Below, in pieces: positions 25,935 to 61,103 of a stretch of DNA of 64,000 nucleotides. Where the stretch lies: positions 806,001 to 870,000 of the forward strand of contig WHVD01000003.1 in assembly GCA_015178975.1 (NCBI GenBank). Direction: 5' to 3'. A program made the translations under genes and the position numbers. A model generated the notes under the pieces. That model worked only from the letters and a program-made list of their open reading frames with translations, made no database searches and was not told the origin of the DNA. Positions within the stretch are counted from its first letter, which is position 1. Each line of letters opens with the position of its first letter. Source of the DNA: Hysterangium stoloniferum. Its lineage: Eukaryota; Basidiomycota; Agaricomycetes; Hysterangiales; Hysterangiaceae.

Positions 25935-26424
25935 TGTCACGAATGTACAAACTCAAATTTTGATAATATTCAATTTAATATTTCTTCAACATTTCTTCGA
26001 CATTCTTTTGACTTTCCAACTCAATTTCCAACTCGACTTCCGACTCGACTATTCTTCGACAATATCTTCAACAATCTCGAATATCTTTAACTTGTCTCAG
26101 GTTGATGTCATTGATGATTTCACTTTGATATCATATTATCATCATAGGTAAATGATATATAGTATATAAGGGCAATGATAGGAACAAAGAAAGTCAGTCA
26201 GAAAACCTGTACTATATTATATTATTACTGTAGTACATAATCATCTAACTTTTCCAAGTCCTTCTTTGAGTTATTTATTCATGAGCCTCTGTGTCCTATC
26301 TTTGCCTCATGCTTTATCAACAGGACGAATTAATACTTCATCAAATGAGGCATTTTTATTCGATATTGTTGAATATTCTTCAATTGTTTATTCGACTTTA
26401 TTGAGTAAAATTCAATTCATGACA
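25935..26424 (+). mobile_element. Solo LTR, family D (490 bp)
   Basis: TGTCACGAATGTACAAAC to TTCAATTCATGACA, flanked by ATCTT (25930-25934, 26425-26429). Its ends and parts of its interior resemble family B, so the two are probably related. Confidence 0.82.
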
Positions 26425-27424
26425 ATCTTTGTCAGCAACTCTTGAACTTAGCTAATCATCTAAGTTCCCCCAACCTCACAGCTACCCTTTAGGCTTATTA
26501 ATTACATAATAAACCTAATAAGTATCTAAGTATTCTTACTGAAATTCCCTGCCAATACTAGATTATTCAAGGCCCAGTCCTAAGTTTATTGAATTAATCA
26601 AGTACAAGCACTCAATAATTCAACACAAATTACTTTCTCTATTAATAAATTATTTAACACCTTGTTAAATAACTATTAATAGTTACAAATAAGCATACAA
26701 GAATCCAAAGCTTTATATCAAGTCTCTGCTAAGTTATTGCACATATACTCAGCCTCTAGCCCCTATTCTCAAGGAATATGTCACGAATCGATTATTCTTC
26801 TATAAAGTCGAATAATAGTCTACTAATCGAACTCGAAAGCCTCGTTCAACGAAGTATATATTCGCCCTGTCGATGAAGTAAGAGGCTATTACCAGTCGCG
26901 AGAACTCACGGAAGTATTTGTCGAAGAAGTTACGACAAAGTAGATTACTAATATCACTAATATACAGATATTTCGACTGACTTCCCTCGCTCCTTTCGTA
27001 GCCCTTTTATGCTTTTCGTTGTATCGTTATGACTATGTTATGAACTAATTATGAAATCATATATAACGTCGAAATGAGACATGTCGAAAGAGATTCGATG
27101 GTGTCGAATAATGTTCAGTTTGTCGAGTCGAATTTGATAGGTCGAAGAGTTGTCGAAAGTTACCTTTGAATGTTTGTGACAATATGTGACATGTGACGGT
27201 TGTGACAGAATAGTTCTTTTATTTGCTAAAAGAGTCATATATTGTTCTATTGAACCTTTCAATAATCAAAATAAGCATTGATTTGAGTTGTTTAAGCTTA
27301 ATAGTGCAGCTCATTAATCTATCAGTATTTAAATTACTGGACCTTTGCTTGTTTTATTGTTGAAGCTCTGTGACACTATAGCATACATATATTGAGCTAT
27401 CTAAGAGAAACCCCTGAATACATT
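26425..27424. other. AT-rich repeat remnant without recognised coding content
   Basis: Flanks the family-B LTR at 26779. No protein or RNA gene seen. Probably the decayed interior of one of the surrounding LTR elements. Confidence 0.4.
26779..27207 (-). mobile_element. Solo LTR, family B (429 bp)
   Basis: TGTCACGAATCG to GGTTGTGACA, flanked by GAATA (26774-26778, 27208-27212). Nearly the same sequence and exactly the same length as the copy at 17861, so probably among the younger insertions. Confidence 0.9.
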
Positions 27425-27776
27425 ACAGAATGGAGCAGAGTCCAAATTGTGACAGGTCGTAAAACCATAATGGGAATGGAGCAGGAGTGGAGTCCTAATT
27501 GTGACAGGTCATTTGACTATAACGGGGCTCAGTTAGAGGGATGACGGGTTTTCCAAGCGGGGTCCAGTGACTGATGTGTGGGACAAGGTCAGACATAGAC
27601 AGGGATGGAGTCTGGCAGGTATTCTGGTGACTGATACACAAAGTAACAAATGTCGAATGTGGACAAGTCTGATGTACGGAGTCTGGCAGGAATTCCGGTA
27701 AACTGACAATTGGTGCGTATAGGGTGGGTGCATGTAAGTTAGTGCCCGGAGTCCAGCAGGAATTCCGGTCATAACA
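27425..27776 (-). mobile_element. Family-A LTR fragment
   Basis: Shares GGAGCGGAGTCC-like and GTGCCCGGAGTCC blocks with family A and ends GGTCATAACA. The other end is missing. Fossil. Confidence 0.65.
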
Positions 27777-27778
27777 CT

Positions 27779-28357
27779 TGCAGTTAGTATATCAGACTAA
27801 GGCTATTATTGTCCTTAGGATGATGAGATAAGCTTCTGTAAAATATGTGTGTGATAAGTTATTTTATTGTGGATTTCTGGTCCTCCTTATATACATTTTG
27901 ATAACTAATTATTTAACTATTTAATTATTTTACGATATCATGTTTAACTATTTATTACCCTTTTTTTATTCTATGACTCCCATGTCTGAGACAAGGGTTC
28001 CAATCTAAGCCTGAACTCGAAGGTTCAGAGGCCAAGATCCAGGATGGAAGCAAATGCCAGTGACTCGAGCTTCTGGCTTAAGTAATAGGTCACGTGACAC
28101 CAAAAATGTGCAAGGCAAAGTGCCAGAAAGCAATAACTAAGTAAATAAAAGATAAATAATTAGTTAAAAATTATATAATAATTAAATAAGATATAATAGC
28201 ATGATATGAGCTATATGCTATTATTATGTGAAGTTAAAAGGAACTAGGCCTTATATTTCACAATAAAAATATAATAAAAATACAATAAATTCCAAAAAAT
28301 ACTAATTAATTCAAAGAAACTTAAGAGAATTTTATGAGATAATACTGATACCTCACA
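27779..28357 (-). mobile_element. LTR-like repeat, family F (inverted copy)
   Basis: Plus-strand TGCAGTTAGTATATCAG to GATACCTCACA, the reverse of 25226-25904. Contains GTCACGTGAC at 28089-28098. About 100 bp shorter than the other copy. Confidence 0.6.
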
Positions 28358-28720: not shown

Positions 28721-29641
28721 TGTCATGAACATACAAATTCAAATTTCGATAATATTCAATTTAATATTTCTTTGACATTTCTTTGACTTTCCAATTCAAT
28801 TTCCAACTCAATTTCTGACTCAACTTCTGACTCAACTATTCTTTGACAACAATCTCAAATATCTTTGACTTGTCTCAGTCTGATGTCATTGATGATTTCA
28901 CTTTGATATCATATTATCATCATAGGTAAATGATATATACATGTAGTATATAAGGGCAATGATAGGAATTGTCAGGAATTGATTATTCTTCAATAAAGTT
29001 GAATTATACATATTCTACTGATCAAACTCAAAAGCCTCGTTCGATGAAGTATATATTCGCCCTGTTGATGAAGTAAGAGGCTATTACCAGTTGCAAGAAC
29101 TCACGGAAGTATTTGTCAAAGAAGTTACATATGACAAGTTAGAATTACTAGTATCACTAATTTACAGATATTTCGACTGACTTCCCTTGCTCCTTTCATA
29201 GCCCTTTTATGCTTTTCTTCATATCGTTATGACTATGTATGTTATGAACTAATAGTGAAATCATACATGACATTGAAATGAGACATGTCGAAAGAGATTT
29301 GATATTGTCGAATAATGTTCGGATTTGTCGAGTCGAATTCAATAAGTCGAAGAGTTGTCGAAAGTTACCTTTGAATATTTGTGACAGTATTGTGACTTGT
29401 GATGGTTGTGACAGGAATGAAGGAAGTCAGTCAGAAAACCTGTACTATATTATATTATTTACTTCTCCGAGATTTTCTTCGACTTAATTATTTGTGAGCC
29501 TCTGTGTCCTATGTATCTTTGCCTCACACTTTATCAACAGGACAAATTAATACTTCATTGAACAAGGCATCTGCATTTGATATTGTTGAATATTCTTTGA
29601 TTGTTTATTCAACTTTATTGAGTGAAATTTGATTCATGTCA
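28721..29641 (+). mobile_element. Family-D LTR split by a family-B LTR
   Basis: Begins TGTCATGAACATAC and resumes after the family-B insertion to end near GATTCATGTCA. Diverged from the copy at 25935; no clear target duplication remains. Confidence 0.65.
28970..29413 (-). mobile_element. Solo LTR, family B (444 bp)
   Basis: TGTCAGGAATTG to GGTTGTGACA, flanked by GGAAT (28965-28969, 29414-29418). Nested in a family-D LTR, which lies in the copia gag remnant: three layers. Confidence 0.85.
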
Positions 29642-30124
29642 CTGCCCGCTGATGGTATTTTGCTTACAGGCTTTGTAGTGTCTGGATGGTTTCACAGAGA
29701 TTGGCATCCTCAGAACATCAAGTTTGATTGATTTGCTGAAGTACATATGTCTACCTGGACCATTTCAGATTGATTGTCAAACTTTGAGCTGATCATCTTC
29801 CAGGTTTCTGCTGCTGTTTCTAGGCCAATCACATTGATCTGGTATGTTTCGGGTAATGTGCTCAACAATATTGAGTGAGTGTGTTCATTCCCAATCTCGG
29901 TCATCTTCAAACTTCTCTTTGATGTTGGTTGTTGCATTGGGGCTAGGTGAGTTAGGCTTCTGCACTTGGCCATCGATGTAATGGATAAGCTTCTGGTAAG
30001 TCAATGCTGATATTATTTGCACTTTATATAGGACCCAGTTCAACCCATCGGCATCTAGCTTTGGTAGGGGCAGAGTTTGACTTGCAGGAAGTGATGTAGC
30101 ATCAGTTTGACCGGGCCCATAACC

Positions 30125-42889: not shown

Positions 42890-43977
42890 ATGGACTTTAA
42901 TGCTATGTTACAACAAGCTCAACAAGCTAGAGAGCTTCCTGGTGGCGGTGGAGACCATCAAATACCTGATAAGTGAGTCTTCTCTACCTCACCTCCACAC
43001 CCGACTCAGTGTCATATTAGCGGCGAAGTTATCCACATATCGTCGCTTGCTTTGTTAAAGATGCTTAAACACGGTCGTGCAGGCGTGCCTATGGAGGTTA
43101 TGGGGCTTATGCTTGGCGAATTCGTGGATGAATACACTGTGCAAGTCATTGACGTGTTTGCCATGCCGCAGAGTGGAACAACAGTCACAGTCGAAAGTGT
43201 AGACCACGTATTCCAACAGAGGATGGCCGAGATGTTGAAGCAGACCGGCCGAACCGAGATGGTGGTAGGATGGTATCATTCGCATCCTGGATTTGGTTGT
43301 TGGCTCTCGAGTGTTGATATAAACACACAGCAGGTATGTTACAGCACCTCAAAGGACCTGATCACCGGGCTAAATGTGGTGTCAAAGTCCTTTGAATCTC
43401 TAAATTCTCGCTCTGTAGCCGTAGTAGTGGACCCCATTCAATCCGTTAAAGGAAAAGTCGTTATCGATGCTTTCCGACTTATAAACCCTCACAGCGTGGT
43501 CTTGGGCCAAGAACCACGTCAAACAACATCCAATATTGGACACATTAATAAGCCCTCCATCCAGGCTCTCATCCATGGCCTCAATAGGCACTATTATTCA
43601 ATTGCTGTCAATTATAGGAAGACAGAGCTAGAGCAAGCCATGCTCATGAATCTGCATAAAAGGAACTGGACAGAAGGCCTGAAGCTGAAAGACTTTAAAG
43701 TCCATCAAGAATCTAATGAAAAAGCGATCAAGGTTAGATTCTTTTCGGGCACTATTCACCTCGTTAATTGAAACTCGTCATCTATTAGTCCATGCTAACA
43801 CTGTCGGAAGCATACAACAAATCCGTACAGGAAGAATCGACGCTGACACCTGATCAGTTGAAGACACGACATGTAGGAAAGCAGGATCCTAAGCGTCACC
43901 TCGAGGAGGCGGTAGAGGAAGCTATGGGCAATCAAATAGTACAGAACTTAGGAACTATGCTCCTTTCTGAGCTATGA
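42890..43977 (+). CDS. RPN11: 26S proteasome regulatory subunit RPN11 (JAMM deubiquitinase)
   Basis: Zinc metalloprotease of the proteasome lid that removes ubiquitin chains during degradation. About 310 aa, the usual length. ATG 42890 gives [20 protein letters not shown], then [18 protein letters not shown] and [15 protein letters not shown]. The catalytic JAMM motif is [19 protein letters not shown] (H-x-H-x7-S-x2-D) with the upstream glutamate in PMEVMG. The last coding block is [16 protein letters not shown] to LGTMLLSEL. Three introns. Divergent from VPS52. An ACGCGT at 42835-42840 lies in the shared promoter. Confidence 0.97.
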
Positions 43978-44290
43978 TCTAGCCCAATGTACCTATTAGG
44001 TTCCTTTGGTGTATCATATGCCAATGATTCATCTGTGGTAACTGCAGATGTGATTGTAAGCGGATACTTTATCCCTCGCAAAAACTCCCATATATACATG
44101 CGTTGTGTAGCCGGATATTAATGTTATTTATTTTTTCGATTCTGAACGACCATAAGTAGCATAAATCGAAATGTAAAGGAAAGAATATCGCTCAATCCAG
44201 ATTTAATCAGGCCTGCTACCTGGGTTACTTGGGCTTAAACTGACCGGCTTCCTGGATCTGACCGAGTTTTCACCACTTTTCTTCTTTAGT
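43978..44290. other. Intergenic region, nothing recognised
   Basis: 3' flank of RPN11 and promoter of ELP4. No gene, RNA or repeat seen. Confidence 0.4.
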
Positions 44291-45766
44291 ATGTCTTTCC
44301 AACGTAAGAATCTACCGCAGAGTGCGATACTCTCAGGAACGCAAACATCGAGCTCAGTCTCTTCAGTATTGAATGTTTCGACCGGCATACCTTCATTGGA
44401 CGATATTCTTGGAGGCGGACTACCCTTAGGTTCTATTCTGTCTGTGTTGGCAACAGACCCCCACACAACATATGCGAACCTTATACAACGGTATTTCATA
44501 GCCCAGGGGATCGCTTCTGGGCACTATATGTGTATACTGGATGATTCTGCCATGGAGATTACGGCACATTGCATGTGGACATCCAACCCAGACCTTGTGC
44601 AAGATTCTGAGCAAAAGGAAGAAGGAAAAGAACTTGGAGTGAAGATAGCATGGAGGTATGAGCATATGAAGCCATTTAAGACAAGCGTGAGCCAAAACGA
44701 GTTCGTGGTCTCTTTCTCTCAGTGGTTGTGGAAAGACCCTTACACAGATACAACAAGGTCGAGTCAGGATACGTATTGCCATATGTTTGACCTGACCCAA
44801 CTTATACCTGAACATGTATTGGAGTTAGCACAATCGTCTGGCTATCTCCATACACTGCCGATTTCCTCTCCTACAGGACAAAATGCTATTGACTCAGTGC
44901 TAAATCAGTTGGATAACAAACTCTCCAATTTATTATCAAAGTCAACCAGGTATGATGAGACATACCGTTCACCATCATTCTATTTTTTTAAGTTCTGTTG
45001 TGGTAGGACACCTATTCGTTTGTCAATACCTGCTCTGGGATCCCCACAGTGGGGAGATATGTCTAAGCCGGTACGTGTTAAGATGAGAGTGTCCATTGTT
45101 TCCAAATTCCACTCAGTCATGGTTGCAAGGATGTAATGCGTTTTCTACACGTCTTGCGTTTGTGTGTATCTCGTTATTCGTCCACGCCTCGGATATGCGT
45201 TCTTGTGACCTTGCCGGCCTATGTTTTGCATGAAAGTTGGATACAAGATCTAGGATGGCTCTCAGACGGATGCATAACACTGCGATCATTCTCATGTATG
45301 TGGTTCATCCTCGGCAGTTCTGAATACTAACTCCTTTTAAGCTGATCCGGCGCTCTTATCTCTGTTTCCATCTCATAATGGGTTGCTTGATATACATAGT
45401 CTTCCGGCTCCCCATTCTCTGGTATCACCGAGTGACAAGCATTCTCAATTGCGTGGGCTTTCGACCTTTTCATCCTCTGCAGCGGGTGGTGGAGAAAATA
45501 ACCTCGCTTTCAAATGTACACGAAAAAGGTTTATAATTGAAACATTGCACCTTGACGTAGAAGGGGGCGTTAACGAACGGCGGACAACTGCGGCCACTAC
45601 TTCAGAAATCATACCCCCGAGACCCGTAGAGCCGTCTACACCGTCGGTTCGTCATGTCGCCGTAAACGATTGTATTGAGGTTGTAACGCCGGAGATTGTA
45701 AAAAAAAAGAAGCCCAAAAAGAGTGTGGCTTTCCAACACGATAGACCGGATCTATATGACTTTTAG
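44291..45766 (+). CDS. ELP4: Elongator complex subunit 4
   Basis: Part of the Elp456 RecA-like ring of Elongator, needed for wobble-uridine modification of tRNA. About 440 aa. ATG 44291 gives MSFQRKNLPQSAILSGTQTS, then VSTGIPSLDDILGGGLPLGS, the family's first motif, and HTTYANLIQRYFIAQG. KIAWRYEHMKPF is the typical middle segment. Later exons contain SLLSLFPSHNGLLDIHSLPA-like sequence and FKCTRKRFIIETLHLDVEGG, a conserved C-terminal block. It ends KKKPKKSVAFQHDRPDLYDF. The degenerate P-loop region lacks a GKT, as is normal for Elp4. Confidence 0.92.
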
Positions 45767-46080
45767 AGTGTTAATTATTATTGATTGTTACCATCTTTTG
45801 CTTAAAGATTTGTGTGTGTACTGCCACGAACCCATTCAAAGTGGATTCATCGGCACTCTGAGTGCCTCCGATGGCATGTGACTGCAGGAAAGTACGCAGC
45901 CACAGCGGTCGCACGGACAATCACTTTGAAATCAACTTGTCTTGCCTAACGCCACGGTGATTTACTACCAGGTCGGTGCCCGGACCCTGTAATTGGACGA
46001 TGTAATTTACTACTGTTCTCGTACGATCACTTCAGGTTCAAGCAGAGACGGATATAAAAACCAAGTATCCCGAGACGCCC
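45767..46080. promoter_or_regulatory. Thiolase promoter region with TATA-like box
   Basis: 314-bp gap. TATAAAAA at 46053-46060 lies only 21-28 bp before the ATG at 46081. If it is a true TATA box it would place the start of transcription at or after the first ATG. See the finding on dual starts. Confidence 0.4.
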
Positions 46081-47598
46081 ATGCTTCGACTAAGTCGTTA
46101 CATTCTCTCTTCTAGGAGTACTCGTTCTGTATTTTGCTTGACACGTTCTATCATGGTGTGTTAGGCTTCAATATTTGGTCTTTATCTGACTCTTTTGTCA
46201 GTCTTTTTCCTCTCCAAATGAAGTCGTTATTGTCGCAGCATCCCGCACACCAACAGGATCGTTCAACGGTGCGTTGAAGAGCTTCTCTGCTCCTCAGCTG
46301 GGTGTTACTGCCCTCAAGCACGCTTTGAAGACATCTAACGTCCCAGTGGAGGCCATTGAGGAGGTCTTTTTTGGAAATGTAATTCAGGCTGGCGTCGGCC
46401 AATCCCCTGCTCGACAAGTCGCGCTTGGGGCTGGTTTGAAAGAATCGACGGATGCTACTACCATCAACAAAGTTTGTGCTAGTGGCATGAAAGCGATCAT
46501 GCTGGCTTCTCAGAGCATACAACTTGGCCACAAAAGCGTGATTGTTGCTGGTGGCATGGAGAGCATGAGTAACGCTCCGTGTGTACTGTCCTCTTATTCT
46601 GAGGGAAGAGCACTCAACCATTGCCTAGTTTCCTTACCCCTCGTGCCCCGCCAGCTTACGGTCACTTCCAAACTAAGGATTCGTTGATTAACGATGCCCT
46701 TTGGGATGTTTATAATGATGTCCATATGGGTAACTGTGCTGAAAGCGCAGCCAAAAAACATTCTATCACCCGTGAACATCAAGACGCGCATGCCATCGAG
46801 TCTTACAAGCGTGCTGAACGCGCATGGAAGTCTGGTGCTTTTGATGCCGAGATAGCTGAGGTTACGGTATCATCGAGGAAGGGCGACATTGTGGTACGAG
46901 AGGACGAAGAATATAAAAACATCAAATACGACAAAGTCCCAACTTTGAAGCCCAGTTTTCAGAAGGAAAATGGAACAGTTACTCCAGCCAATGCGTCGCC
47001 ATTGAATGACGGTGCATCTGCAGTCATCCTGATGTCAGCATCCAAGGCTAAGGAACTTGGTATAAAACCACTTGCAAAGATTATATGTAGGTCATTCACA
47101 ACATTCGTAATATGGCAATCAAGGATCGCTTATTTTCTCTGAATATAAATAGCTTACGCCGATGCCGCCATGGCTCCGATCGACTTCCCGATAGCACCAA
47201 CAATTGCTCTTCCCCTTGCTCTTGAAAAGGCTGGACTCAAGCCTTCCGATATCTCTCTTTTCGAAGTTAACGAAGCTTTCGCTTTGATTGTTCCCCTTGT
47301 CCAAAAGTTATGTCAAGTTGATTATAACAAAATCAACGTAAATGGGTATGTCGTCCTTTTAAGTTTGGAATTGGTTAGCTTATGTTCATATTTAGCGGTG
47401 CTGTTGCCCTGGGTCATGCTGTCGGATCTTCCGGTTCACGAATCATAGTTTCTTTGGTGCATGCTCTCCAAACGGGACAGTATGGCGCTGCTGGTATTTG
47501 CAATGGTGTAAGTTTAGTTGATAGCCTTATTCTGCCTCGGCTGATCTTATAATGACTAGGGTGGGGCGGCTTCAGCCATGGTTATACAGCGATTATAG
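46081..47598 (+). CDS. ERG10: Acetyl-CoA C-acetyltransferase (acetoacetyl-CoA thiolase)
   Basis: Condenses two acetyl-CoA to acetoacetyl-CoA, the first step of the mevalonate/ergosterol pathway. In mitochondria it takes part in ketone and isoleucine breakdown. About 415 aa. The first exon (46081-46155) encodes MLRLSRYILSSRSTRSVFCL, an Arg/Ser-rich presequence. It is spliced to SFSSPNEVVIVAASRTPTGS. The active-site cysteine is in NKVCASGMKAI. The intron 46579-46628 joins SNAP to FLTPRAPPAYGHFQTKD. VNEAFAL, then GAVALGHAVGSSGSRI with the catalytic histidine and GICNGGGAAS with the second cysteine, close the protein. Stop TAG at 47596-47598. The family is certain; the compartment is inferred. 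Confidence 0.95.
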
Positions 47599-47932
47599 TC
47601 TTGCCAGCTACGGCTCCCAAATTTCCTGTATACATTAAGAATAAATAGACCATTCCGTTAAATACTAAAAAGACTATTATCAAGCAAATATCTAAGTTTG
47701 ACTGTTTCAAAAATTTGTGGTGGAGCACAAGCGCGGCATGAGAAGCGGGACTATTTCAGTGACTAGTCGTGTGTTATATCTGCTTAACCCAGACAGACTG
47801 TGGGATACACTCCCTCTCGTCGTGTTCCTTGTGCCTAGCTATAGTGTGATAAGATAGTCTTAGGAACTATAAATTAAGGTATGGGACTTGGGAACTTTGG
47901 CAAAGTCGTTAATTGCCTCCTGGAATTTCTGG
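47599..47932. other. Intergenic region, nothing recognised
   Basis: Promoter of the permease gene. An ATG at 47881 opens only a 22-codon frame and is not in the permease frame, so it could act as a short upstream ORF. Confidence 0.35.
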
Positions 47933-50359
47933 ATGCCTGGCTCAATTAGTGACAAGAAAGAGAAGGACGGACAGTCGATTCTCGATGAAAAGAGGCCCCC
48001 TTCAGAAGACAGTTATGACTTGAATGACGGGGATGAAGCTCTTCATCTTGTCGGGGCTCAACGGACGACGTTTTACACAGAGGAGTATAATCGAAAGCTA
48101 AGACGCAAGCTGGTGAGTGGTGGCAACTACTATGAGTTACTTACTGCTTAGCCTTTCGCTTTCCGCCAGGATCTACTTATTCCCCCTATATGCGCCGCGG
48201 TCTATTTTACCCAGTTTTTGGATAAGACTTCCCTGAACTATGCAAGGTAAACATTCGAGGCACAAAAGAAGGCGGCACTTGATGGTTGATTTTTCTCAGT
48301 ATAATGGGTCTCCCCATTACAGGTCAACACTTCAATCTTGTGTCTCTGGCCTTCTACGTTGGTAAGGTTTTTTTTTTTCAGAACTTGAGAAGTTGTTTTC
48401 GACCGTCTTCTAGGGTTTTTGGTCTGGGAATTCCCGACGATGTATATCTCTCAAAGAACACGGATTGCAAAGTACCTGGGTAAGTTGGTTAGTTCCACCC
48501 GACTAGACCAGATCTTCCCCTCATTATTATCCCGACTAGGGTGCAATATTGTGGTCTGGGGGGGTATCCTCATGCTACACGCGGCTGCTCCGACATTTGG
48601 CGGTTTCTTTGCTTTGAGATTCTTGCTCGGTAATTCTAATACTAGAGTGTCTTCATGGTCTAGAACTAAAACACGAACATACAGGGATGTGTGAAAGCTG
48701 TGTCGCGCCTATCCTTATTTTGCTTATTTCAATGTTTTATAAAAAGTCAGAGCAGGTGAATATTAAGAGAGCATCTCCTGTTTACAATAAAATGACAAGT
48801 GCAATATAGGCCACCAGGATCTCGTGGTTCTACGTCATGGTTAGGGATTCCATTCTGATTGGAACGATTATTAACAACGGCCCCAGAATGGTTTAACGCA
48901 GGTCTTTGGCGGTTTTGTCGCCTACGGTGTTGTAAGCACACACAATGTTGCTGCCTAGACGATAATTGTTGACGATTCCAACCAGTCATTTTCCACAGAC
49001 AAAGCCATCCCCCCTTACAAGATTATATACGTTCTACTCGGGGGTTTGGCGATTTTCGTCGGAATATGTGTGCTGATTTGGCTTCCTGACTCCCCGGTCC
49101 ACGCTCGTTTCCTCACTAAGGAAGAGAGAATAGCTGCGCTTGAGAGAGTACGAGATGACCAAGGAGGGACAGAAAACAAGCATTTTAAGAAAGAACAGGT
49201 AAATCAATGTCACTAGCGCGGTAGCCTTATCCTTACTATTATCGTCAATTTTCCAAGGTCTGGGAGGCTCTGACCGATGTACGCACCTGGCTAATCGTTC
49301 TCTCCACTTTGACAAGTGGGTGCAATCTACTCCAGTATTTAATCACTCTCTAATATCTTTTTCTTTAGCAAGCATTCCAAATGGTGCATTGAGCAACTTC
49401 AGCAACATCATTATCAAGGTAAATTTGAATCTGGAAGCAACCTCTCATTCCTAGTTAACGCCAATCTTTGTATTTAATTTTAGAGCTTTGGTTACACATC
49501 AAAGCAAACGCTGATAATATCCACTCCTGGGGGAGCGGTCGCTTCTGCCACGACGCTCCTTTGCGGATATTATTCGGACAAGAAGGTTCTTTGAAAGTAG
49601 CATTTTTGATAGATGTTTTTACTGATGCGCATTGTAACTTGGCAGGGCGAGAGAATGCTTCCCATTGTTTTTGCATTGGTGAATATCACAACCCTTCTAA
49701 AATAATCGCTTTAACAATTTGCAGGTACCTACTATCGTGGGTTCAGCCGTTCTGATAGGACTGAATGGATCCCATATGAAAGGTTCATAATCGTCCTCCT
49801 ATTACAGTTCTCACTAACAAGGTTTATGTTTTCTAAGGTGCTTTGCTCTTTGCTGTGTACTTAGTCGGGACCTTCGGTTCAGCCTTGTCCATTATTTATG
49901 CATGGAATGCAAGTAATACCAGCGGACACACAAAGAAAGGTGTGCATTTACTTTTCAACTTGTTTACCCAGACTGGATGATCTGGATCTGACAAAAGTCT
50001 CATCTCAGTAACAATCAACGCGATGACATTGGTAGCTTTCGCTCTTGGTAACATCGCTGGTGGGTCAAATTTGTAGCTTATACGCCATCTGTTGATTGGT
50101 TTTACACATTTTGATTGAAGGTACGGAAATCTTTCAACCGAAAGATGCGCCAGGCTATGTTCCAGGGAAAATTGCTATTCTGGTGCTTTTATCGGTTCAA
50201 ATATTTATCAGCTTCCTTCTGCGATGGGTTAATGTGAGACTTAACCGCAAGAAGAAAGAGGTCTTAGAAGCAGCCAAAGCTAGAAACGGATGGACGGATG
50301 AGGACGTGGAACGAGAGAGGCAGAAGCACGCATTTTTGGATTTGACGGATAGGCAGTGA
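47933..50359 (+). CDS. MFS anion:cation symporter family permease (Dal5/allantoate-like)
   Basis: Plasma-membrane transporter of the fungal Dal5/Tna1-type family (allantoate, nicotinate, related acids). About 530 aa in over ten exons. The start ATG 47933 gives MPGSISDKKEKDGQS, the first ATG in this frame. The family signature begins FYTEEYNRKLRRKLD, then PPICAAVYFTQFLDKTSLNY AS (helix 1). LVWEFPTMYISQR is the conserved helix 2-3 segment, and GGFFALRFLLGMCE spans an intron. The splice near 48883 must use the CCCCAG acceptor to give FYVMNGLTQVFGGFVAYG. HARFLTKEERIAALERV is the typical central loop. The C-terminus is hydrophilic and ends LTDRQ. No damage seen. The substrate cannot be read from sequence. 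Confidence 0.88.
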
Positions 50360-50714
50360 GTATGGCTTACCTGCCGTTAGTTCGGAGCTAACATAATTAT
50401 AGGAACATGTTTTTTGTTTACACTGCTTGATTTCCTAACGATGGACTAACGACGTTTTTGTACTCATCTTCGATTCCCAAAGAGAGCCTTAAGCAAATGA
50501 ATTTCCCAATCACGAAATTATATAGTACATTATAAGCTACTATGGTAGTTTACCACAAACTTTAAGATCAAGAATACCGCTTGGTAAATAAGAGATGGAA
50601 TAGGTTACGATGAGATATAACTTGTGAAAGAGTACATGACCGATCGCGTTGTCACGTCGTGACGGGAGCTTTAGAATCACTGCTTGTATACTTAGAATTG
50701 TTCATGACTGGCAT
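50360..50714. other. Intergenic region, nothing recognised
   Basis: 3' flank of the permease and promoter of the next gene. No gene, repeat or RNA seen. Confidence 0.35.
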
Positions 50715-53038
50715 ATGTGGGTATTGCAGCCACTTACAACTGCTCATGTCAACCTCGTACCTTTTGAAACACCAGTCATTGGTCGCGTCGAATCATTTGT
50801 GACTGCTCAGCGTGGATATCTCGAGTTATATGCCGCAGAAGGCCAGTTAATGCTTCCGAAGGCACAGGGCGAAGACCAATCTAGTTCCAGGGTAGAAGGT
50901 AAAAGTGTCATATCACTGGATGCTTTGCCAGGCATGGGATTCTCCAGTCCTGTTTTGAAGGCACGGGTGAACAAAGTGGCGAGCAATGGTACGAAACAAT
51001 GCGCAACGCAACCCACAGACAAGATTCACAGGAGTGCGAAGAGACCTAGGCGCAACCCTATTGTAAAGGCCCCATTAAAGAGGCCTCCATGTGTAGACCC
51101 CGAAAATGCATCGCGTATGTTCCATTCTACGCGTTGTAGCGTTACTCACACGCAAGTTCAGGCTTGGCAGAACGTCTAGACCGTAAACGAGCTAATGAAG
51201 CGATACGCAATTTCTCATTGGCAGATGTAAATGAGGAAGCCCAAGTCAGCACTGAAAGTCAGAAAAACGAGCAACGCAAACGAAAGCTGGGGCCGAAATC
51301 TAGGCTTCCAGCTGAGCTTACCCTGATGCAGTGTTTTTCGGCCTCGAATATTGGCAGGCAGCGTCTCACAGTAATGATATTATTTTCAGTGTCACTATAG
51401 CTCCTGATTCCCAATAGCTAAAGCCTGGACCTTGCATTGGTGTCTTCAATAAAGGCAAGGCCTCTGAACCCGTCCAAATCAGTAGCAAGAAGAGTAAAGG
51501 TCAGAAGGACATGCTTTCCCCCTCTTTAGTGCACTGCTTAGGCTCACATCTCCAAGACTATACTTTCTCTGAAGCCAAGTTTCTCAAGCAATTAAAAGCC
51601 AATTGTCCGCCTACGAGCGACGGAGGCTCGGTGTCTCTCCGGTCGTCAGAGGAGTCACACTCACGATATTCCCAACAAAATATTCAGCAAGTTCATGATA
51701 CGTCTCGGTTTTTCTCTGCAGACACCAACTCGTTAAATAAAGGTGAACTGCCGGTGAAGGAGATAGACAAGTCCCAGATAATTCCCAGTATAAAAGAAGT
51801 GGGGTGTCAATCCGATGTTTCACAACACACTAGGGAATCCGAAACTTGGGATATAGAGTTGGGGAAGTTGCTACCCTCTGGCGATGAGTGTGATATAGAT
51901 CTCAAAGATCCAGGAGAGACGTTGGAAAAGCCTTCTGCGTTGAATAAGCTACCTTCTATTGCTTCAAATGATGAACGACTCGAACCGCCCATCGGCGAGC
52001 TGTACGGTCTAATCTTCTCAGCTTCAAGTTAGCAGTCCTGTAACTCATTGTGATCCTCATAGGAGCCATCCAACTGTAAATTCCCGTTTTCTAACAATTT
52101 ATCCGACCAGTTCAAGTACAATGGAGCCTCCCTTATATGATCTCGCGAACGGTTTAACAGTCCCCAATCAAGATTTTCCGAGCCCTGACTTACCTTTTAC
52201 ATCGCCTCCAGAGAATCTACCTTTTCGATTCCGGCCTTGTGCATTACTAAAACCGAGGTTCGAAGCTCCCTCCCCTCCCTCCGGCTCTTTCTCTGACGGG
52301 CCAGGTGGGACTAATGACCACGAGATAGGACAGTTCGACGTCTCGTATATGGATTCTAAACATGCGACCTGGCTCATTGACAATGAAGACGTCGACATAG
52401 CCACCAAAGTAGTGATGAAGGATCATCTCGGCTTGACAGATGTTAACAGATCTACCTATCTGCCTCGGCGCGAAAAAGACTTCTTGAACGTCTATGCAAA
52501 TGTGCAAGAAGTATATCACAGTTCTGACAAAGATACGGACATGAATGTGTATAACCCTCAGCAGAGCTACTCGGAAACCGGTGTGAAATCGTTCCATGGA
52601 CATCCTAGAGAAATTATCGATTCTAGTACAAGCATGCAAGGGGAGCTCGAGATCCCTGACAACCATTCAGACGATTGGGTTATGGAAGATCCTTCGGTCC
52701 CTGATATACCGAGTGTGTATAATTCTTGCGACGATAGTCCGAACCTGGCTTGTCACCATGTGTCAGAGGAAATTGCGGACGAGTTGCTAGATGAGGACCA
52801 AAGTAGCATGATGGAATATGACATCGACGGGCAGCTGTTTCCACCTTCGGAGTCCTTGTCTTCTGAACCAAACGTGTTGCCTTTTCTTCAAGGACATTCT
52901 ATTCTTCGCGGGATCGAAGAACTACATACGCACCTGTTGCCACAAGACACTCTGTATGAAAGCGAAAACGTAGGTATAGACGGTGAGGTGATACGGTTAC
53001 TCAAAGAAAAACACCATTGGCTTCCGCAAAGATTGTAG
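50715..53038 (+). CDS. Unrecognised, mostly disordered protein
   Basis: About 690-720 aa in four or more exons. The first in-frame ATG is 50715 (MWVLQPLTTAHVNLVPFE), though an upstream exon is possible. Exon 1 runs to about 51113 and joins LAERLDRKRANEAIRNFSLA. A short conserved-looking block, LKPGPCIGVFNKGKASEPVQ, follows another intron. FSEAKFLKQLK then leads into long acidic, Ser-rich sequence. The tail (exon 52121-53038) ends VIRLLKEKHHWLPQRL. Basic stretches (RSAKRPRRNP, RKRKLGPKSR) suggest nuclear localisation. No domain recognised. The FNKGKAS and FSEAKFL blocks look like short linear motifs kept by selection. It lies just upstream of the eS1 gene on the same strand. Confidence 0.6.
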
Positions 53039-53227
53039 ATGCATTTGGATAGTATGTATTTGTTTGAATAAAAGAAATACTAGTTTTGGATTATGAGATA
53101 CGGGCGCCTATATAACTGTACAGTTATATTGTCCCAAGGTTTACTTGCGAATTCGAAACTCAGCCAGGCGCGCTAACCACGCTCACCTTTCTTCTCAAGA
53201 CACCCTCTACATATTTTCTGCGACCTA

Positions 53228-54225
53228 ATGGCTGTTGGCAAGGTATGTTACTCATGATTATATATCGTCTCATCTCACTGGCTCAATATTGTTTATTTTT
53301 GTGGTAGAACAAGCGTTTATCTAAGGGTAAGAAAGGCTTGAAGAAGAAGGTTGTCGACCCCTTCTCCCGTAAAGGTGCGTCTCTTCCTACACCGATAAGC
53401 TCATAGACACTGATTGCACATGTACTGTAGATTGGTATGATATCAAGGTACCCAAAATTTTTGAAGTCAAGAACATCGGAAAGACATTGGCCAACCGGTC
53501 GCAAGGATTGAGTAAGTCGTCTCATTTCTGGGTTGTACCACAGATTTTAACCAGAGCGCAGAAAATGCCAATGATTCGCTAAAAGGTCGAATTGTGGAAG
53601 TCTCCCTTGCTGATTTGACCAAGGATGAGGAACAAGCGTTCCGAAAAATCAAGCTCAGGATCGACGAGGTCCAGGGGAAAAATTGTCTCACCAACTTCCA
53701 CGGAATGGACTTCACTTCTGATAAATTGCGTTCACTCGTGCGGAAATGGCAAACTCTTATTGAAGCACACGTCGACGTTAAGACCCAAGATGGTTACCTT
53801 GTTCGCCTTTTCACCATCGCATTCACCAAGCGGCGGCCAAACCAGGTCAAAAAGACCACGTACGCGCAGAGTGCTCAGATTAGGGAGATTCGCAAGAAGA
53901 TGTTTGAGATCATGATCCGAGAGGCATCCAGTGTCGACCTTCTAACTCTCGTCCAAAAGTTCATCCCTGAGGCAATTGGTCGTGAGATTGAGAAAGCCAC
54001 CCGCAATATCTACCCTTTGCAGAATGTTTATGTCCGCAAGGTGAAGATTTTGAAGTCGCCCAAGTTTGATGTATCGAAGTTACTTGATATCCACGGTGAA
54101 ACCACTGATGTGAGTATTCATCTTCTCGATGTCTTATAAATAACTCACATTAGCCCTGTATGTAGGAGACCGGTACCAAGGTTGTAAAGGACTTCAAAGA
54201 GCCTGAAATCTTGGCCTCGGTATAA
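53228..54225 (+). CDS. RPS1: 40S ribosomal protein eS1 (S3a)
   Basis: Component of the small ribosomal subunit near the mRNA exit. About 256 aa, full length. ATG 53228 gives MAVGK, then a first intron that interrupts the code after five codons, as in many fungal ribosomal-protein genes. [31 protein letters not shown] and [12 protein letters not shown] follow. The large exon holds [40 protein letters not shown] and [20 protein letters not shown]. The last exon reads [19 protein letters not shown], with TAA at 54223-54225. Five introns. Confidence 0.97.
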
Positions 54226-54592
54226 AATAGGGATTCTGTCTGACCTTTTCCCTGCATTTACATGTTTTTATGCTATGATTATCCCATTCTCATGAGCATA
54301 TATGATATGTTGTTCATCATTGCGTTAAGAGTACCCATGAGCAGTTGATTTCGTTCTGTAGTAATTACAGTGCTTTCAAAGTAAAATAAAATGAGAAATT
54401 GAGTTTTTTTGATGATGTGACGGATGTCACCAACGGTATCCACAGCATCTTTGATTTCCCAGCCTTGATCCCAGAGTTTGAGAGCGCATTCTTTTATACG
54501 AGGACTTAGGGATCTGCTCCCGCGGTGCCGGGCGGCGCCGGCATCGAGCCGTACGTAAGCGCATTATAACCGAGGTCCCCAAATATTGATAT
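54226..54592. other. Gap between eS1 and the DNA transposon
   Basis: The first 150 bp is the eS1 3' flank. The remainder includes CGGTATCCACAGCATCTTTGA-like unique sequence up to the TA at 54591-54592. No gene seen. Confidence 0.4.
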
Positions 54593-54733
54593 ACAGTAGA
54601 CTCTCTTATAACCCATACCCCAAATAACCCATACTCTTGATAACCCATGGGATCCCTCATTTCCCAAGTCAGTTTGCTGGGATTTCAGGCTGATAACCCT
54701 GTTAGTTTGAGTAATGCTAGCAGTGCTTCCCAG

Positions 54734-54805
54734 GGTCAGGTGGTGTAATGGTTAACACCCCTGCTATATATGCAGAAGCCCTGGGTTCAATCCCCAGTCT
54801 GGCCA
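54734..54805 (+). ncRNA. tRNA-like sequence in the left TRIM LTR
   Basis: 72 nt fold as a cloverleaf: acceptor GGTCAGG with TCTGGCC, D-stem GTGT/ACAC, anticodon stem CTGC/GCAG, T-stem CTGGG/CCCAG with loop TTCAATC. The A box TGGTGTAATGG and B box GGTTCAATCC fit the Pol III consensus. TTTT follows within 6 bp. The anticodon loop TATATAT lacks the universal U33, and the outermost anticodon-stem pair is C-A. The module is therefore probably a promoter or tRNA-derived RNA rather than a decoding tRNA. Confidence 0.75.
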
Positions 54806-55017
54806 TTCATTTTCTACACTTTTAACAGGTTATGGGCCCCGCTGTGTGCTATAGGGCATGGTTCCTGTGTGTAGAGTGAACAGCTATATTTGTGTGTGGT
54901 ATAGTGGACAAGTCTGGACAAAAAGAGCCAGAGAGGACCTATATCTGCTTATAGTATAGTTGAGTGCTAGCATTAAGGGAGTGTGTTAGTTTGAGTAATG
55001 CTAGCAGTGCTTCCCAG

Positions 55018-55089
55018 GGTCAGGTGGTGTAATGGTTAACACCCCTGCTATATATGCAGAAGCCCTGGGTTCAATCCCCAGTCTGGCCA
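55018..55089 (+). ncRNA. tRNA-like sequence in the right TRIM LTR
   Basis: Same sequence as the copy in the left LTR, at the same offset (34 bp from the LTR start). It has the same A and B boxes and the same T-run terminator. Confidence 0.75.
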
Positions 55090-55265
55090 TTCATTTTCTA
55101 CACTTTTAACAAACCCATAACTCTCCCATACCCCATAACCCATACTGATTTCTGGCCCTCATAACCCATACATGTAATTAAATAACCCCGAGGTGATACT
55201 CCATTATTATATAATCATTAATTTCCCAAAACAGCAATGACCACCTAGCCCATCAACATCTCTCA

Positions 55266-55480
55266 TTATGAAACCCATCGAAGTTCTGAAAAAAGGCTTG
55301 AACAAGCTTCATGATCAGATATGAGATCGGAAAGCCAAGCTTGATATTGAGTTGAGAGCTGGTTGACCCATACCAGAGGCTGACCAGGATTGGCTTGATG
55401 GAGATGGGAATTTGATAGATGAAGAAAGGGTGGTGGAGATGTTGGACAATGCATCTGATTATGAACAGGGGCTTGCCAGG
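55266..55480 (+). pseudogene. Remnant of an accessory or N-terminal ORF of the pogo-like element
   Basis: Frame fragments read MKPIEVLKKGLNKLHDQI and WLDGDGNLIDEERVVEMLDN. In-frame TGA codons interrupt it, and a solo LTR splits it at 55481. Reading resumes after the LTR near 56258 (LDSWSKTIVQKLQKLAG). It may be the first exon of the transposase. Confidence 0.5.
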
Positions 55481-56252
55481 TGTTACGACTGGAATTCCTG
55501 CCAGACTCTGGGTACTAACTTATATGCACCCACACTCTATATGCACCAATTGTCAGTTTACCGAAATTCCCGCTGGACTCCATACGTCAGACTTCTCTAC
55601 GTTCGACTTCATTACATTGTATTTCAGTTACCAGAATACCCACCAGACTCCATCCCTGTCTATGTCCAACCCTGTCCCATGCATCAGTCACCAGACCCTG
55701 CTTGGAAAACCTGTCTTCCCTCTAACAGAGCCCCATTCCCATTTTAGTCAAATGACCTGTCACGATTCAGACTCCGCTCCATTCTGTCCCATTCCTAACA
55801 CCAAATTTGGTGTTTACTATTCTTGTTTTATGTTTTGCTAGTTTTGTTTCATTATTACTGGATTTGGTATGTCATTCATTCCACAGTCTATATAGTCTGG
55901 CAGATGTTGTACATACAATCCAGTAAGAAAATCGGCTTAGATTCCTCCCAGTAATCTAATATATTTTCCACTCTAAACTCCTACTTGAATCACACCACTC
56001 ACGCTAGTCGGAGCCCATGGGCTCTGGCGCATCTATCTCTCTTATCTATCTCGACTCATGACCTCTCGACCCACAATCTCCGACCTACAACCCCTCAACC
56101 CACGAACCCCGCCTGGACTCCCCGGGATTCCTGTCTGCCTGTCTGAAATTGGACAACACGATCTCACGAGGGCGCAGCCTATAAGCTGAAGCCAAGTCCT
56201 ACCGGATATTCTGCAGGTTTCTCTGGAAACCCACCGTGTACGTACCCTAACA
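55481..56252 (+). mobile_element. Solo LTR, family A (772 bp), inside the pogo-like element
   Basis: TGTTACGACTGG to GTACCCTAACA, flanked by CCAGG (55476-55480, 56253-56257). Opposite orientation to the copies at 21410 and 24279. It carries the same TATAAGCTGAAGCCAAGTCC block near its right end. Confidence 0.9.
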
Positions 56253-56499
56253 CCAGGTTGGATTCATGGAGCAAAACAATTGTACAGAAGCTGCAGAAGC
56301 TTGCAGGGAGTGGTGGGATAAATGATGGCCCTTCAAAGAAGTGGAAATGTAAGGCTTTGAAATTTTCATAGTTTAGATACATACCATGCTGAATGTATTG
56401 TTTGCAGGCCCAACTGCCAGTGGCATATGTCCTATACCTACTGGTGAAAAATCCTTGAAGCTGCTAACAAAATCTCGGAAAAAACAAAAATGCCACCCT

Positions 56500-57963
56500 T
56501 CAACAAAGGATTGAAATCTTGGATTGGCATAATGCCAATGGTAGGAATCAGACAAAAACAGCAAACCATTTTCATGCAATCTATCCCAGCCTCAAAATCA
56601 AGCAGCCACTGGTCTCAGCATGGGTCAAAGATGAAGTGAGGTGGCAAGCAGAAAGGAACAAAGATTCTGCACATTCAGCCAAAAGGGTTCGTCAAACACA
56701 ACATCCAGAGGTTACAGAAATGTTGGACCTTTGAGTTTCAAAGGCAATGGCAGACAAGCTACTTCTTACTGGCTATGTTCTTCACCAAAAATGGAAAACA
56801 TTTGCTGAACTTGCAGGTGTGCCAGATGATGAACGCCTTAGCTTGAGTGAAGGGTGGTTAAGCTGTTTTAAAGCACGAAATGGCTTGAAGGATATGAAAT
56901 GATATGGTGAAGCTGCCTCTGCATCTCCTGATACCATTGAAAGGGAGCAGCTGCATATTCAAGAACTCATCAAAAAAGAGGGTTACATGCCACATGATAT
57001 TTTTAATACAGATGAGGCTGCTCTTTTCTATGCATGAGTTCTCTCTGATTTTTAGATGTTGATTGGGCCTCAGCAAAGTCTTGCAGTATGCCTCCAGATC
57101 GTGGACTTGCCAACAAGCAGAACTCTGCTATCAAAGGAAAGAAGAATCGACTCACATATCTATTCATGGCAAATGCAGATGGCTCAAAAAAATTACCACT
57201 ACTTATCATTGGAAAATCATAGAAGCCATGGCCCTTCAAGGGCAAGACTGGTGCACAACTTGGTTTCAATTATCGAAGCAATGCAAAAGCATGGATGACA
57301 GCCACTCTCTATCAGGAGTGGCTATTGGATTGGGATAGGGACCTTAGAAGTGAGGGGCAAAAGATTTTACTTTTGCAGGACAACTTTGCAGGACACATTG
57401 TCCCAGAGACCCTCACCAACATATGTGTTAAGAATTTCGAGCCTAACCTCACTGCACACATTCCCAATGACCAGGGTATCATTCGCTGCTTCAAGGCAAA
57501 ATATCGTGCCCAATACATCCAACATTCTATTGACCACTATGAAGCTGGCATTACTCCATCAGGGATCTACGAAATTGATCAACTTGAAGCTATGTGACCT
57601 GCTAATAATGTATGGAATGACGTGGACACAACAACAATCCAAAATTGCTGGCATAAAGCCAACATCCTTCCTAACTTATCAGCATCAACATCTCTCAGGC
57701 CTATTCAACCCTCTCTTCCCATCTCATCCCTAATCCACACCATTAACTTGGAGCCATGCAATGATCCCATCATGCAAGCTGAGGATGCCACTCATGAGGC
57801 ATTGGATGATCTTGAGGCTACTGGGGCCCTCCAACACTCAAACCGAATGAATGTGATGGAGCTTCTCAACCCAGCTGATGAGACTGTCAGGAACCGGAAA
57901 ACCCGCTGGCCTCCAGGCCCCCAGACCCCATCCTACATGCTCCCGACCCTCTATAATGTATAG
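56500..57963 (+). pseudogene. Pogo/CENP-B-type transposase remnant
   Basis: In order: an N-terminal HTH (RIEILDWHNANGRNQTKTAN), a CENP-B-type second HTH (KLLLTGYVLHQKWKTFAELA), then the DDE nuclease with IFNTDEAALFY (first Asp), MPPDRGLANKQNSA, ILLLQDNFAGHI (second Asp) and FEPNLTAHIPNDQGIIRCFK (third acidic region). Stops follow EMLDL (near 56732), follow LKDMK (near 56900) and occur near 57050, 57220 and 57596, and the frame shifts between blocks. Not functional. The C-terminal part continues at 59630 beyond an insertion. Confidence 0.85.
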
Positions 57964-59606
57964 TTACAACTGGAGTTCCTGCCGGAGCCCACATGTCAAC
58001 TTGTTTATACCTGACTCTCTATACACACCCTGTCAGGGTAATATATATAATATATATTTTTGCCATTTATTTTTGATTTTAGTTTATTTTAACTAAAACT
58101 ACAGGTAGCAGTACAAGCATGCTACGAGATCAATTACATAATCGCGTTGCCGCCCGCACGAAAAGCAGCGCGGTGTTGTAACACCGCAACATGACGAAAC
58201 GGTGGCACGACACAGACGACAGCGCCGACATAAAGCCGACGCCGCCATCCACGTCCCGATCGTCATATAGTGGCGGCCGCGCAGCTCACAGTGACGCCGC
58301 GCAATTGCACCGCGACGTGACGTAGTAGCGGCACGGCGCAAACGATGGCGCCGACGTAAGGCCGACGGCGCCGCCTACGTCCCGACGGACACACAGTGCG
58401 AAGCACTGTGTGCCCATAGAGGCCTCTTGTGCGCCGGCACTGCAGCTGTAATCGGAGTTTACGCAAATGCCGATGCGCTGCGCGGACCTACACAGCGCCG
58501 GGCGGGATTACGTAAGCGCCGAAGCGCAGCTATGCAATGTAGTGCATACATGCCGTTTTTCTTAGGTTTATTCATAAATAAAAAATACTAAATAAATATT
58601 AAATAAATAGTATAAATAGGGGGCATGTACATAGTTGGTCTTTAGTTTCAATCTCTTAGGAATCCCACTAAAACAAGTGTGATCTCCCCTGTCATTGAGC
58701 TATCTCCTTTTCATTTTATTTCTGTGTTCTATCTTGTGTTTGGTAGCCTTGTTAGTGTTGCCCTAACGCACCCCACCTGTCTGCACCTAACCCTCTGTGT
58801 CTCATACACCAGTCCTCTGACTCCACCAGACTTCGGACTCCACTCTATATACACCCGTCACTCTGTGTCTTATGTACCAGTCACCGGACTCCGACTGGAC
58901 TCCTGGAACCCCTCTAACAGAGCATAGAACCCCACTCCTGTTATGATCTGTCTCTGCGTCTCACACACCAGTCATTGGAAAACCCACTGGACTCCGCCGG
59001 ACCTCCTGCACATCAAACCTGTCTATACCTGACACTATCTTGTGCACCAAGTCACCGGACTCTGACCAGACTTCCGGAACCCCTCTAACTGAGCCCCACT
59101 CCAGTTATGGTTAAATGACCTGTCACTCCCATTCCATTCCATCCCTAATTCCCAGTTTAGTATTTACTTGTTTCATTTTATGTTTAATAGTTCTGCCTCT
59201 CATTAATACCGGATTTGGTATTATTACATTTCACAGTCTATATAAGTCTGCTATATTCATGTACTTAGAATCCAGTTTCAATCTCAAACAAGTTTTCCCC
59301 CAAACAAGTTTGACCCTTGAACAGTCTCTAGTCTTCTTGTCTGTCTGCATGCTCGATTCCCAGAACTCCCATGGGAACTCTGGAATCTATATCTTCCTGT
59401 ATGCATTCTGTCAGCTCGAAATATGGACACCCGAATGAGTGTACAAGGGCGCAGCCTATAAGCTGAAGCCAAGTCCATCTCAGTCGTTTACCTTATCTTT
59501 CTGGTAATTATTCTAATACCACCGTTCCTTGTACTAATATCCCCAGAACTTTCCCCGGACTTATTGCCTGGGGACCCTGTGGGACAATTCCCAGAAGCAA
59601 GTGTGT
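57962..59606 (+). mobile_element. LTR-like block related to family A, split by another solo LTR
   Basis: Starts near TTACAACTGGAGTTCCTGCC, like the family-A start, and resumes after 58768. Near 59448 it carries GCAGCCTATAAGCTGAAGCC, shared with family A. It interrupts the transposase between 57963 and 59630. End points are approximate and no target duplication was found. Confidence 0.55.
58031..58768 (+). mobile_element. Solo LTR, family H, with a CpG-rich core (738 bp)
   Basis: Begins TGTCAGGGTAATA and ends GCCCTAACG, with CACCC on both sides (58026-58030, 58769-58773). The interior 58130-58545 is strikingly GC- and CpG-rich, unlike every other repeat here. AT-rich flanks and TATAAATAG near 58610 could be promoter sequence. 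Confidence 0.65.
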
Positions 59607-59625
59607 GTTCGGAATAATTACCAGA
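59500..59625. repeat. 126-bp segment bounded by a 14-bp inverted repeat
   Basis: TCTGGTAATTATTC at 59500-59513 and its exact complement at 59612-59625. It could be a tiny inverted-repeat element or a chance feature at the edge of the LTR-like block. No target duplication found. Confidence 0.35.
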
Positions 59626-59629
59626 AACC

Positions 59630-59981
59630 TCCATGGGACTATTTGTGGAGCTTTGTTCAGAACTTAACAGAGACGCACAATATCTTCGATGCAACAGATA
59701 AAGATATCTATCAGGTTGTGATGGATGCAAAAGCAGCCATGGTGCAGGGAGTGAACAGCAAGGGGAATAGTGGTGATGTCAAAGCTGTCAAACCACATCC
59801 TACACACAATGAAGCACTCCAAGCAGCATTAGTCTTGGGAAAATACATGAACCAATTAGATGATGATCTATTCATACATTCATTAGAGTCAATGCTGGGC
59901 TCATTTGGGAAGAGGACACACATTCTCAAGATACAAGCCATGCAGGACACAAAGATTACTAGTTATTTTTTGCATGCATAG
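59630..59981 (+). pseudogene. C-terminal part of the pogo-like transposase
   Basis: Open for about 115 codons: WDYLWSFVQNLTETHNIF, then HNEALQAALVLGKYMNQLDD and ESMLGSFGKRTHILKIQAMQ, ending TKITSYFLHA. This tail, with the aliphatic ALQAALVLGKY helix, is common in basidiomycete pogo/Tigger-type transposases. Separated from the DDE part by an LTR insertion. Confidence 0.7.
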
Positions 59982-60132
59982 CTTTGTATTCTACAAGAAT
60001 GCTAGGTATTTCCATATAGACAATTGACAACCTTCATCTTGACAGTAGTTGACCTCACTCAAAACCCATACTCTGCTATAACCCATACCCTGTACCTATC
60101 CCAAGAGGTATGGGTTATAAGAGAGTCTACTG

Positions 60133-61103
60133 TACTTGGGGACCTGTTAATTCACTTTTAAGACCAGTTTTAATGTTTACAAGTGAATTAGCCCCTTTCT
60201 AATAGCATATACCATTTCCAATGGTATTACCATTCAAAATATAACCATTCTGTAGTTTCAAGTCAACATTTGTGTCCACAACAATTGTTGACTTTTTGCA
60301 GCACCCTTGCAGCAATGCACAATACCAAATTAGCGGTGCCAACGCAACAAGTTAGCCCAGGACTCGGGCTAACTCAATGGTGATGGTTTTTCAAACTCAG
60401 CTAGATTCGGTTTTTGCCTATCTTAAGCCCGTGTAGCCATTTCAGTCTAAATGCCGAAATGGCTTCTCCTGAAAGAATTTTGAAGAAATGACCGGGATAT
60501 ATAGTGCCCCTGCAAGGATATTTCATTTTTTATGTAAGTGAATCCTGGGATTAAGATGTTTCATTTACAATGAGGTGGAAAGGATTGAACCTATAACATT
60601 TAACAAAAGACTTACTGTAAGCGCAACACCATAATGCCTTAAGCTACAGTCATCACCTCAACCATATGACATGTCCATTGACCTCGCGGTTTGTTCTTCA
60701 GAGCAACAAGCAGGTGCTATCTCATCAAAAGTTATTTTTCAAGTGAATTTCCATTCAGGAAAATACATTTGTTGCTATATTATTAGGTCCTTCTGCTGAT
60801 GTAATCGTCTGTGGGAACTGAATGTGTCGTCATCATATACTCTGCTCCATGCATCCTTGGGCAATAAGAGCAGCGACGGTAACACTTGGAAGAAGAAAAT
60901 GCGGCGAGACACTGCGTGGAGGATAGGATTGCACGTAAAGTAAGGGGAGTGGGGAATGGCGCCAGGGATATGAATTACCAGGGACAAGATAGTGAGTGGT
61001 TATGTAACGGCGCATGATAAAAGGCGCAAACCTGCAACAACAGATCTATAAAGACCATCACACATCTATTATAATTAATTTCGCATCGTCCCCCCTCCCA
61101 TTC
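60133..61103. other. Intergenic region, no gene recognised
   Basis: AT-rich DNA after the transposon. A minus-strand tRNA-like stretch (60571-60660) fails the fold test. Otherwise nothing but the promoter of the APRT gene. Confidence 0.4.

Follow-up and report, generated by a model that had tools for sequence, protein, structure and literature searches.

A complete TRIM-sized LTR element with a tRNA-like unit in each LTR, most likely of the Helenus kind, in Hysterangium stoloniferum

The window, that is, the whole 64,000-nucleotide stretch of Hysterangium stoloniferum contig WHVD01000003.1 that was analysed, contains ordinary eukaryotic genes at 42977-54139, encoding a JAB/MPN protein, a PAXNEB protein (which we take to be Elp4), a thiolase and the ribosomal protein eS1. 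The eS1 frame gave its best matches to 7r81 (298.5 bits) and 5oql (297.1 bits), from Neurospora and Chaetomium, with the plant entry 9h3g next (285.9 bits). This order points to a eukaryotic and probably fungal host without fixing the phylum, and a thiolase piece added nothing to it. The eS1 gene is located just upstream of a decayed DDE_1 DNA transposon on the + strand (54594-60132). The inverted ends of this transposon are identical over 26 bp and flanked by TA, a DDE_1 piece (57223-57594, E 8.8e-20) lies between the ends, and the transposon is presumably pogo/Fot-like. The left-end pattern TATACAGTAGACTCTCTTATAACCCATA (54590-54617) recurs inverted at 60136-60109 with two mismatches, and two matches of this pattern were obtained in none of 100 shuffles. 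A solo-LTR-like repeat and other repeats are also held within the transposon.

The transposon hosts a complete TRIM-sized LTR element of 412 bp on the + strand (54700-55111). The 5′ LTR (54700-54827) and the 3′ LTR (54984-55111) have TGTTA...TAACA termini, are separated by 156 bp and constitute the longest direct repeat within 54000-55800. Direct comparison bore out the two identical 128-bp LTRs of the original prediction, with 128/128 bases in common. A primer-binding site (PBS) directly follows the 5′ LTR and is succeeded by an internal region without a T4 run (54840-54974) and by the polypurine-like tract AAGGGAGTG (54975-54983), which was read directly. Such a purine tract next to the right LTR had also been predicted; the run does adjoin the 3′ LTR, but it is short and interrupted by a T. 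No stop-to-stop frame of at least 130 aa was found inside 54700-55111.

The 5-bp AACCC target site duplication (TSD) claimed for the element is present on both sides, at 54695-54699 and 55112-55116. A 5-bp match is less improbable at this site than elsewhere because the site is rich in AACCC; exact copies of ATAACCCAT number 11 on both strands of the window, seven of them between 54594 and 60132. When the flanks were joined minus one AACCC, another ATAACCCAT was regenerated, and the restored copy therefore provides internal evidence for an insertion. No other match to the LTR was detected in the 64-kb window at E up to 1, and no further copy of the internal region was found there, the best other matches being 13 and 33 bp (E 0.32). 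A distant-mode search of a plasmid collection with the element gave no match, and an exact 30-mer from the LTR had 0 matches in viral contigs.

Recent movement, which had been proposed on the strength of the identical LTRs, is likely but loosely bounded. The observed divergence of 0/128 is consistent with it, and the rule-of-three limit is approximately 2.3%. With the fungal substitution rate of 1.05e-9 quoted in PMC5689174, this limit corresponds to an age of up to approximately 11 million years; the bound is loose because 128 identical bp allow such an age.

A tRNA-like unit of 72 nt is located on the + strand of each LTR, at 54734-54805 in the 5′ LTR and at 55018-55089 in the 3′ LTR. ARAGORN called tRNA-Ile(TAT) in each LTR, and the Rfam family RF00005 scored the unit at 46.8 bits (gathering score 29; E 7.4e-07 over the window). 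The two units were the sole tRNA calls of ARAGORN and Rfam in the 64-kb window. The agreement of the two programs upholds the predicted cloverleaf of each LTR, and the tRNA-detection check proposed for the 72-nt segment gave a score above the gathering threshold. The predicted boxes were located by pattern matching, the A box as TGGTGTAATGG (54741-54751, + strand) and the B box as GGTTCAATCCC (54784-54794, + strand). The A-box pattern is frequent in the window (24 matches, 13 on the + strand and 11 on the − strand), and one of its matches, at 54897, falls between the two LTRs and hence outside either tRNA-like unit. Matches to the strict B-box pattern are fewer (3 on the + strand and 1 on the − strand). 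Because A-box strings are common in the window, the tRNA-like call rests on the whole cloverleaf and not on the A box. Chance occurrence of the tRNA-like part, the objection considered in the original prediction, was countered by shuffling: ARAGORN made a call in 0 of 2000 dinucleotide-shuffled LTRs, and the real LTR, which served as the positive control, was called at identical settings. The isolated fold of the unit was moderately better than those of shuffles (z −2.18, with 7 of 200 equally good).

The unit is defective as a tRNA. In tRNAs the anticodon is almost invariably preceded by a U (U33); in the anticodon loop TATATAT of the unit, an A takes this place, and the anticodon stem begins with a C-A mismatch. 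The unit was compared with seven tRNAs, and the alignments, 73 to 79 columns long, had 42 to 50 identical positions. The most identical positions were found with the yeast Ile tRNA (50/79), and the best score with the human Gln and Glu tRNAs. The A box of the unit resembles that of a Gln tRNA.

The PBS predicted at the left LTR is present as the 12-nt sequence GGTTATGGGCCC (54828-54839, + strand), which is of the anticodon-arm type. It pairs over 12 nt, with one G-U pair, with the anticodon arm of the initiator methionine tRNA (iMet). The pairing energy was −22.2 kcal/mol, a value that none of 2000 shuffled arms attained (best shuffle, −21.7 kcal/mol). The tRNA-like unit of the element was considered separately as a possible primer and rejected, as 200 of 500 shuffles paired equally well with the PBS.

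These features also bear on a reading in which the locus holds no LTR retrotransposon and is a tandemly duplicated tRNA-derived SINE or tRNA pseudogene. Two tRNA-like units in the same orientation, 284 bp apart, agree with that reading, but the repeat is exactly 128 bp long, has TGTTA...TAACA ends and is accompanied by a TSD. The iMet-type PBS right after the first copy and the purine run ahead of the second likewise argue against such a tandem duplication, which we consider extremely improbable.

Exact matches to the PBS 12-mer number two in the window, where 0.01 would be expected by chance. The second site (30113-30124, − strand), 24.7 kb from the element, is the informative one because the pattern was taken from the element itself. 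This site was first reached via looser PBS patterns, whose counts in the window were near chance (14 against 10.59 expected, and 9 against 6.15 expected). The second copy directly follows an LTR-like end, TTTATTTCTACA, and beyond it lie gag remnants on the − strand (30106-29713) that matched Retrotran_gag_3 (E 0.013) and Retrotran_gag_2 (E 0.006). Both matches are below the Pfam cut-offs and in different frames, yet they are ordered and located where gag would be expected. The Copia-associated LTR probably starts near 30506, judging from TGTTAGG at that place, and the Copia remnant would extend over approximately 30506-28400 (− strand); its other LTR was not found. The 12-mer shared with a site beside weak Copia gag remnants therefore points to Copia machinery, and the identical PBS gives the proposed relation between such an element and a Copia helper a concrete case.

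TRIMs with tRNA-derived sequences in their LTRs were named Helenus by Kojima in 2024 and were grouped with Cassandra and Ajax as TRIMp3 (PMC10886601). Helenus includes 113 families from Pucciniales, and other families are from Agaricomycetes, animals and Selaginella, the fungal ones outside Pucciniales being from Agaricus, Coprinopsis and Amylostereum (PMC10886601). Published lengths range from 311 to 1263 bp. Fungal Helenus elements have 5-bp TSDs, Copia-like PBS regions and a PBS that is mostly complementary to a tRNA anticodon loop, that of iMet being the commonest, and most Helenus families have TRGCY and YGG in box A and GGTTC in box B (PMC10886601). Pairing between the PBS and the tRNA-like unit is absent in Helenus, most of the units are non-functional tRNAs, and the LTRs are poorly conserved (PMC10886601).

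The present element resembles Helenus in its TRIM size of 412 bp, its identical LTRs and its lack of coding capacity, as well as in a tRNA-like unit that occurs in both LTRs, pairs with the PBS no better than chance and is unlikely to be a functional tRNA. The likeness to fungal Helenus extends to the 5-bp TSD, the iMet anticodon-type PBS and the link of this PBS to Copia, and the motifs YGG and GGTTC are both present. Box A begins with TGGTG, in contrast to the TRGCY of most published families, and the tRNA call of Ile-TAT differs from the isotypes in the published high-copy table. A polypurine tract precedes the 3′ LTR in Helenus, and the element has the purine run AAGGGAGTG at this place. 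Five of the seven Helenus features tested were found, whereas two are ambiguous, namely the first half of box A (TGGTG) and the polypurine tract, which is short and T-interrupted; the likeness is one of description. The published table for rust fungi indicates that LTRs of this kind inflate tRNA gene counts (PMC10886601); both tRNA calls of the present window likewise come from such LTRs.

The original prediction had drawn its comparison with Cassandra, and a whole TRIM with a tRNA-derived A/B-box unit in each LTR is supported in that Cassandra-like sense. Cassandra also carries the promoter of a small-RNA gene inside TRIM LTRs and is presumed to be transcribed by Pol III, but its promoter is that of 5S rRNA and not of a tRNA, it is found in plants, and it is the one validated case (PMC10886601). 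Rfam matched the tRNA family alone, both in the window at the gathering score and in 54000-60500 at E up to 1, and gave no match to 5S rRNA. Ajax, a nemertean TRIM, shares a Pol III-type promoter in the LTR and a 5-bp TSD with the present element but differs in carrying partial 5S rRNA (PMC10886601). SMARTs and canonical TRIMs are similarly very short, non-autonomous and thought to be mobilised in trans, whereas their LTRs are without a Pol III-type unit (PMC10886601). In the titles and abstract openings among the matches listed by a literature search, no fungal element of this kind was found beyond those of PMC10886601, and a search aimed at Ascomycota found no such element. TRIMs have been reported in three of five Boletales genomes, and the available part of that report makes no mention of tRNA in them (PMC5689174).

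Based on the above, the stretch 54700-55111 is very probably a complete non-autonomous Helenus (TRIMp3) LTR retrotransposon, with a Pol III/Copia mechanism as the proposed mode of mobility. The element is real and is most likely a new member of the kind described in 2024, not a new type.

The claim that this fungal element had independently captured a tRNA gene is unsupported; such a capture is not needed because the features of the element fit those of Helenus as published (PMC10886601). A TRIM of the host lineage may nevertheless have captured a different tRNA in parallel to the published fungal Helenus, and this history would be compatible with the mechanism of the Helenus reading. The departure of box A from the published majority motif and the lack of Ile-TAT among the isotypes of the published high-copy table speak for it, but the comparison with the seven tRNAs (42 to 50 identities over 73 to 79 columns) singled out no isotype. 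The poor conservation of Helenus LTRs also weighs against it (PMC10886601), and a parallel capture is possible but rather doubtful.

Under the Helenus reading, TFIIIC would bind the A and B boxes of the 5′ LTR, and Pol III would start near LTR position 35, at the start of the tRNA-like unit. Transcription would proceed past the two T4 runs in the 5′ LTR, through the PBS, the internal region and the polypurine tract and into the 3′ LTR, which would leave an identical R stretch at either end of the RNA. A Copia reverse transcriptase acting in trans would synthesise the minus strand from a cleaved iMet half-tRNA bound at the PBS, and insertion of the DNA by Copia integrase would generate the 5-bp duplication. 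In this model the tRNA-like unit would serve as the promoter, and neither as the primer nor as a working tRNA. In the model for Cassandra, the Pol III transcript ends in the 3′ LTR and thereby has a common R sequence (PMC10886601).

The placement of the T runs raises the question of how Pol III clears the 5′ LTR and still makes a reverse-transcribable RNA. Two T4 runs (54810-54813 and 54820-54823, + strand) lie between the tRNA-like unit and the end of the 5′ LTR, and the same runs recur in the 3′ LTR; because the LTRs are copies, T4 runs stand upstream of the PBS too. The TTTT noted after the cloverleaf in the original prediction is therefore present in both LTRs, but it cannot be read as a plain Pol III terminator, since its copy in the 5′ LTR would halt transcription short of the PBS. 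Counted from the assumed start at 54734, a T4-obeying polymerase would yield an RNA of approximately 80-90 nt without the PBS. The Pol III of S. pombe terminates at approximately 90% at T5 but to a negligible extent at T4 (PMC4982682). With such behaviour the 5′ LTR would be passed, but there would be no stop in the 3′ LTR, in which no T5 or longer run was found; one has to go 1889 bases beyond the element to reach a T5. Leaky termination at T4, or RNA ends made in another way, is thus required. That the internal region itself has no T4 run is statistically unremarkable, as 45.8% of 5000 shuffles were likewise without T4.

The same observations bear on the possibility that the element is a Helenus-like TRIM whose RNA is made by Pol II, the tRNA-like unit being what remains of a SINE once inserted into an ancestral LTR. 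This alternative contests the promoter step and not the classification. The string TATATAT in the anticodon loop (54765-54771, + strand), which recurs in the 3′ LTR, might be a TATA element, and the T4 runs sit where a Pol III product could be hindered; Kojima also states that Pol III promoter function in Helenus is not validated by experiment (PMC10886601). However, a TATA-like string is weak evidence in DNA of 43% GC, and both boxes, along with most of the cloverleaf, have been kept although tRNA function looks lost. This retention of the boxes suggests selection on them, and Pol II transcription of this kind appears unlikely. Similarly improbable, in our estimation, is a combination in which a tRNA with a presumably Gln-like A box was independently captured as the LTR promoter in a host lineage from which no Helenus has been published, leaky T4 runs set the transcript ends, and the anticodon loop possibly supplies a second, TATA-type promoter element for Pol II. 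The Helenus reading with Pol III transcription is the one retained here.

The window also contains other LTR-like repeats. Three solo-LTR-like repeats of one family (TGTTAC...TAACA when read in the LTR orientation) are located at 55481-56252 (+), 21410-22247 (−) and 24279-25117 (−), and are flanked by perfect 5-bp TSDs (CCAGG, ACATG and AGACT, respectively, on the + strand); no TSD was found at a partial relative (27484-27780). A second LTR-like repeat (TGTCA...TGACA) is present in five copies that are approximately 86-98% alike. Perfect 5-bp TSDs were found at the copies 17861-18289, 26779-27207 and 28970-29413, and the same test found none at 22398-22826 and 22912-23359. A further LTR-like repeat (25935-26424, TSD ATCTT) is approximately 65% related to the TGTCA family. 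Its second copy (28721-29641) is split by the repeat at 28970-29413 and itself lies inside the Copia remnant, and the insertions are therefore nested three deep. A tandem array with units of approximately 54 bp, as estimated from self-comparison offsets, occupies 15847-16505, and each of its strands has a stop-to-stop open frame of 226-235 codons.
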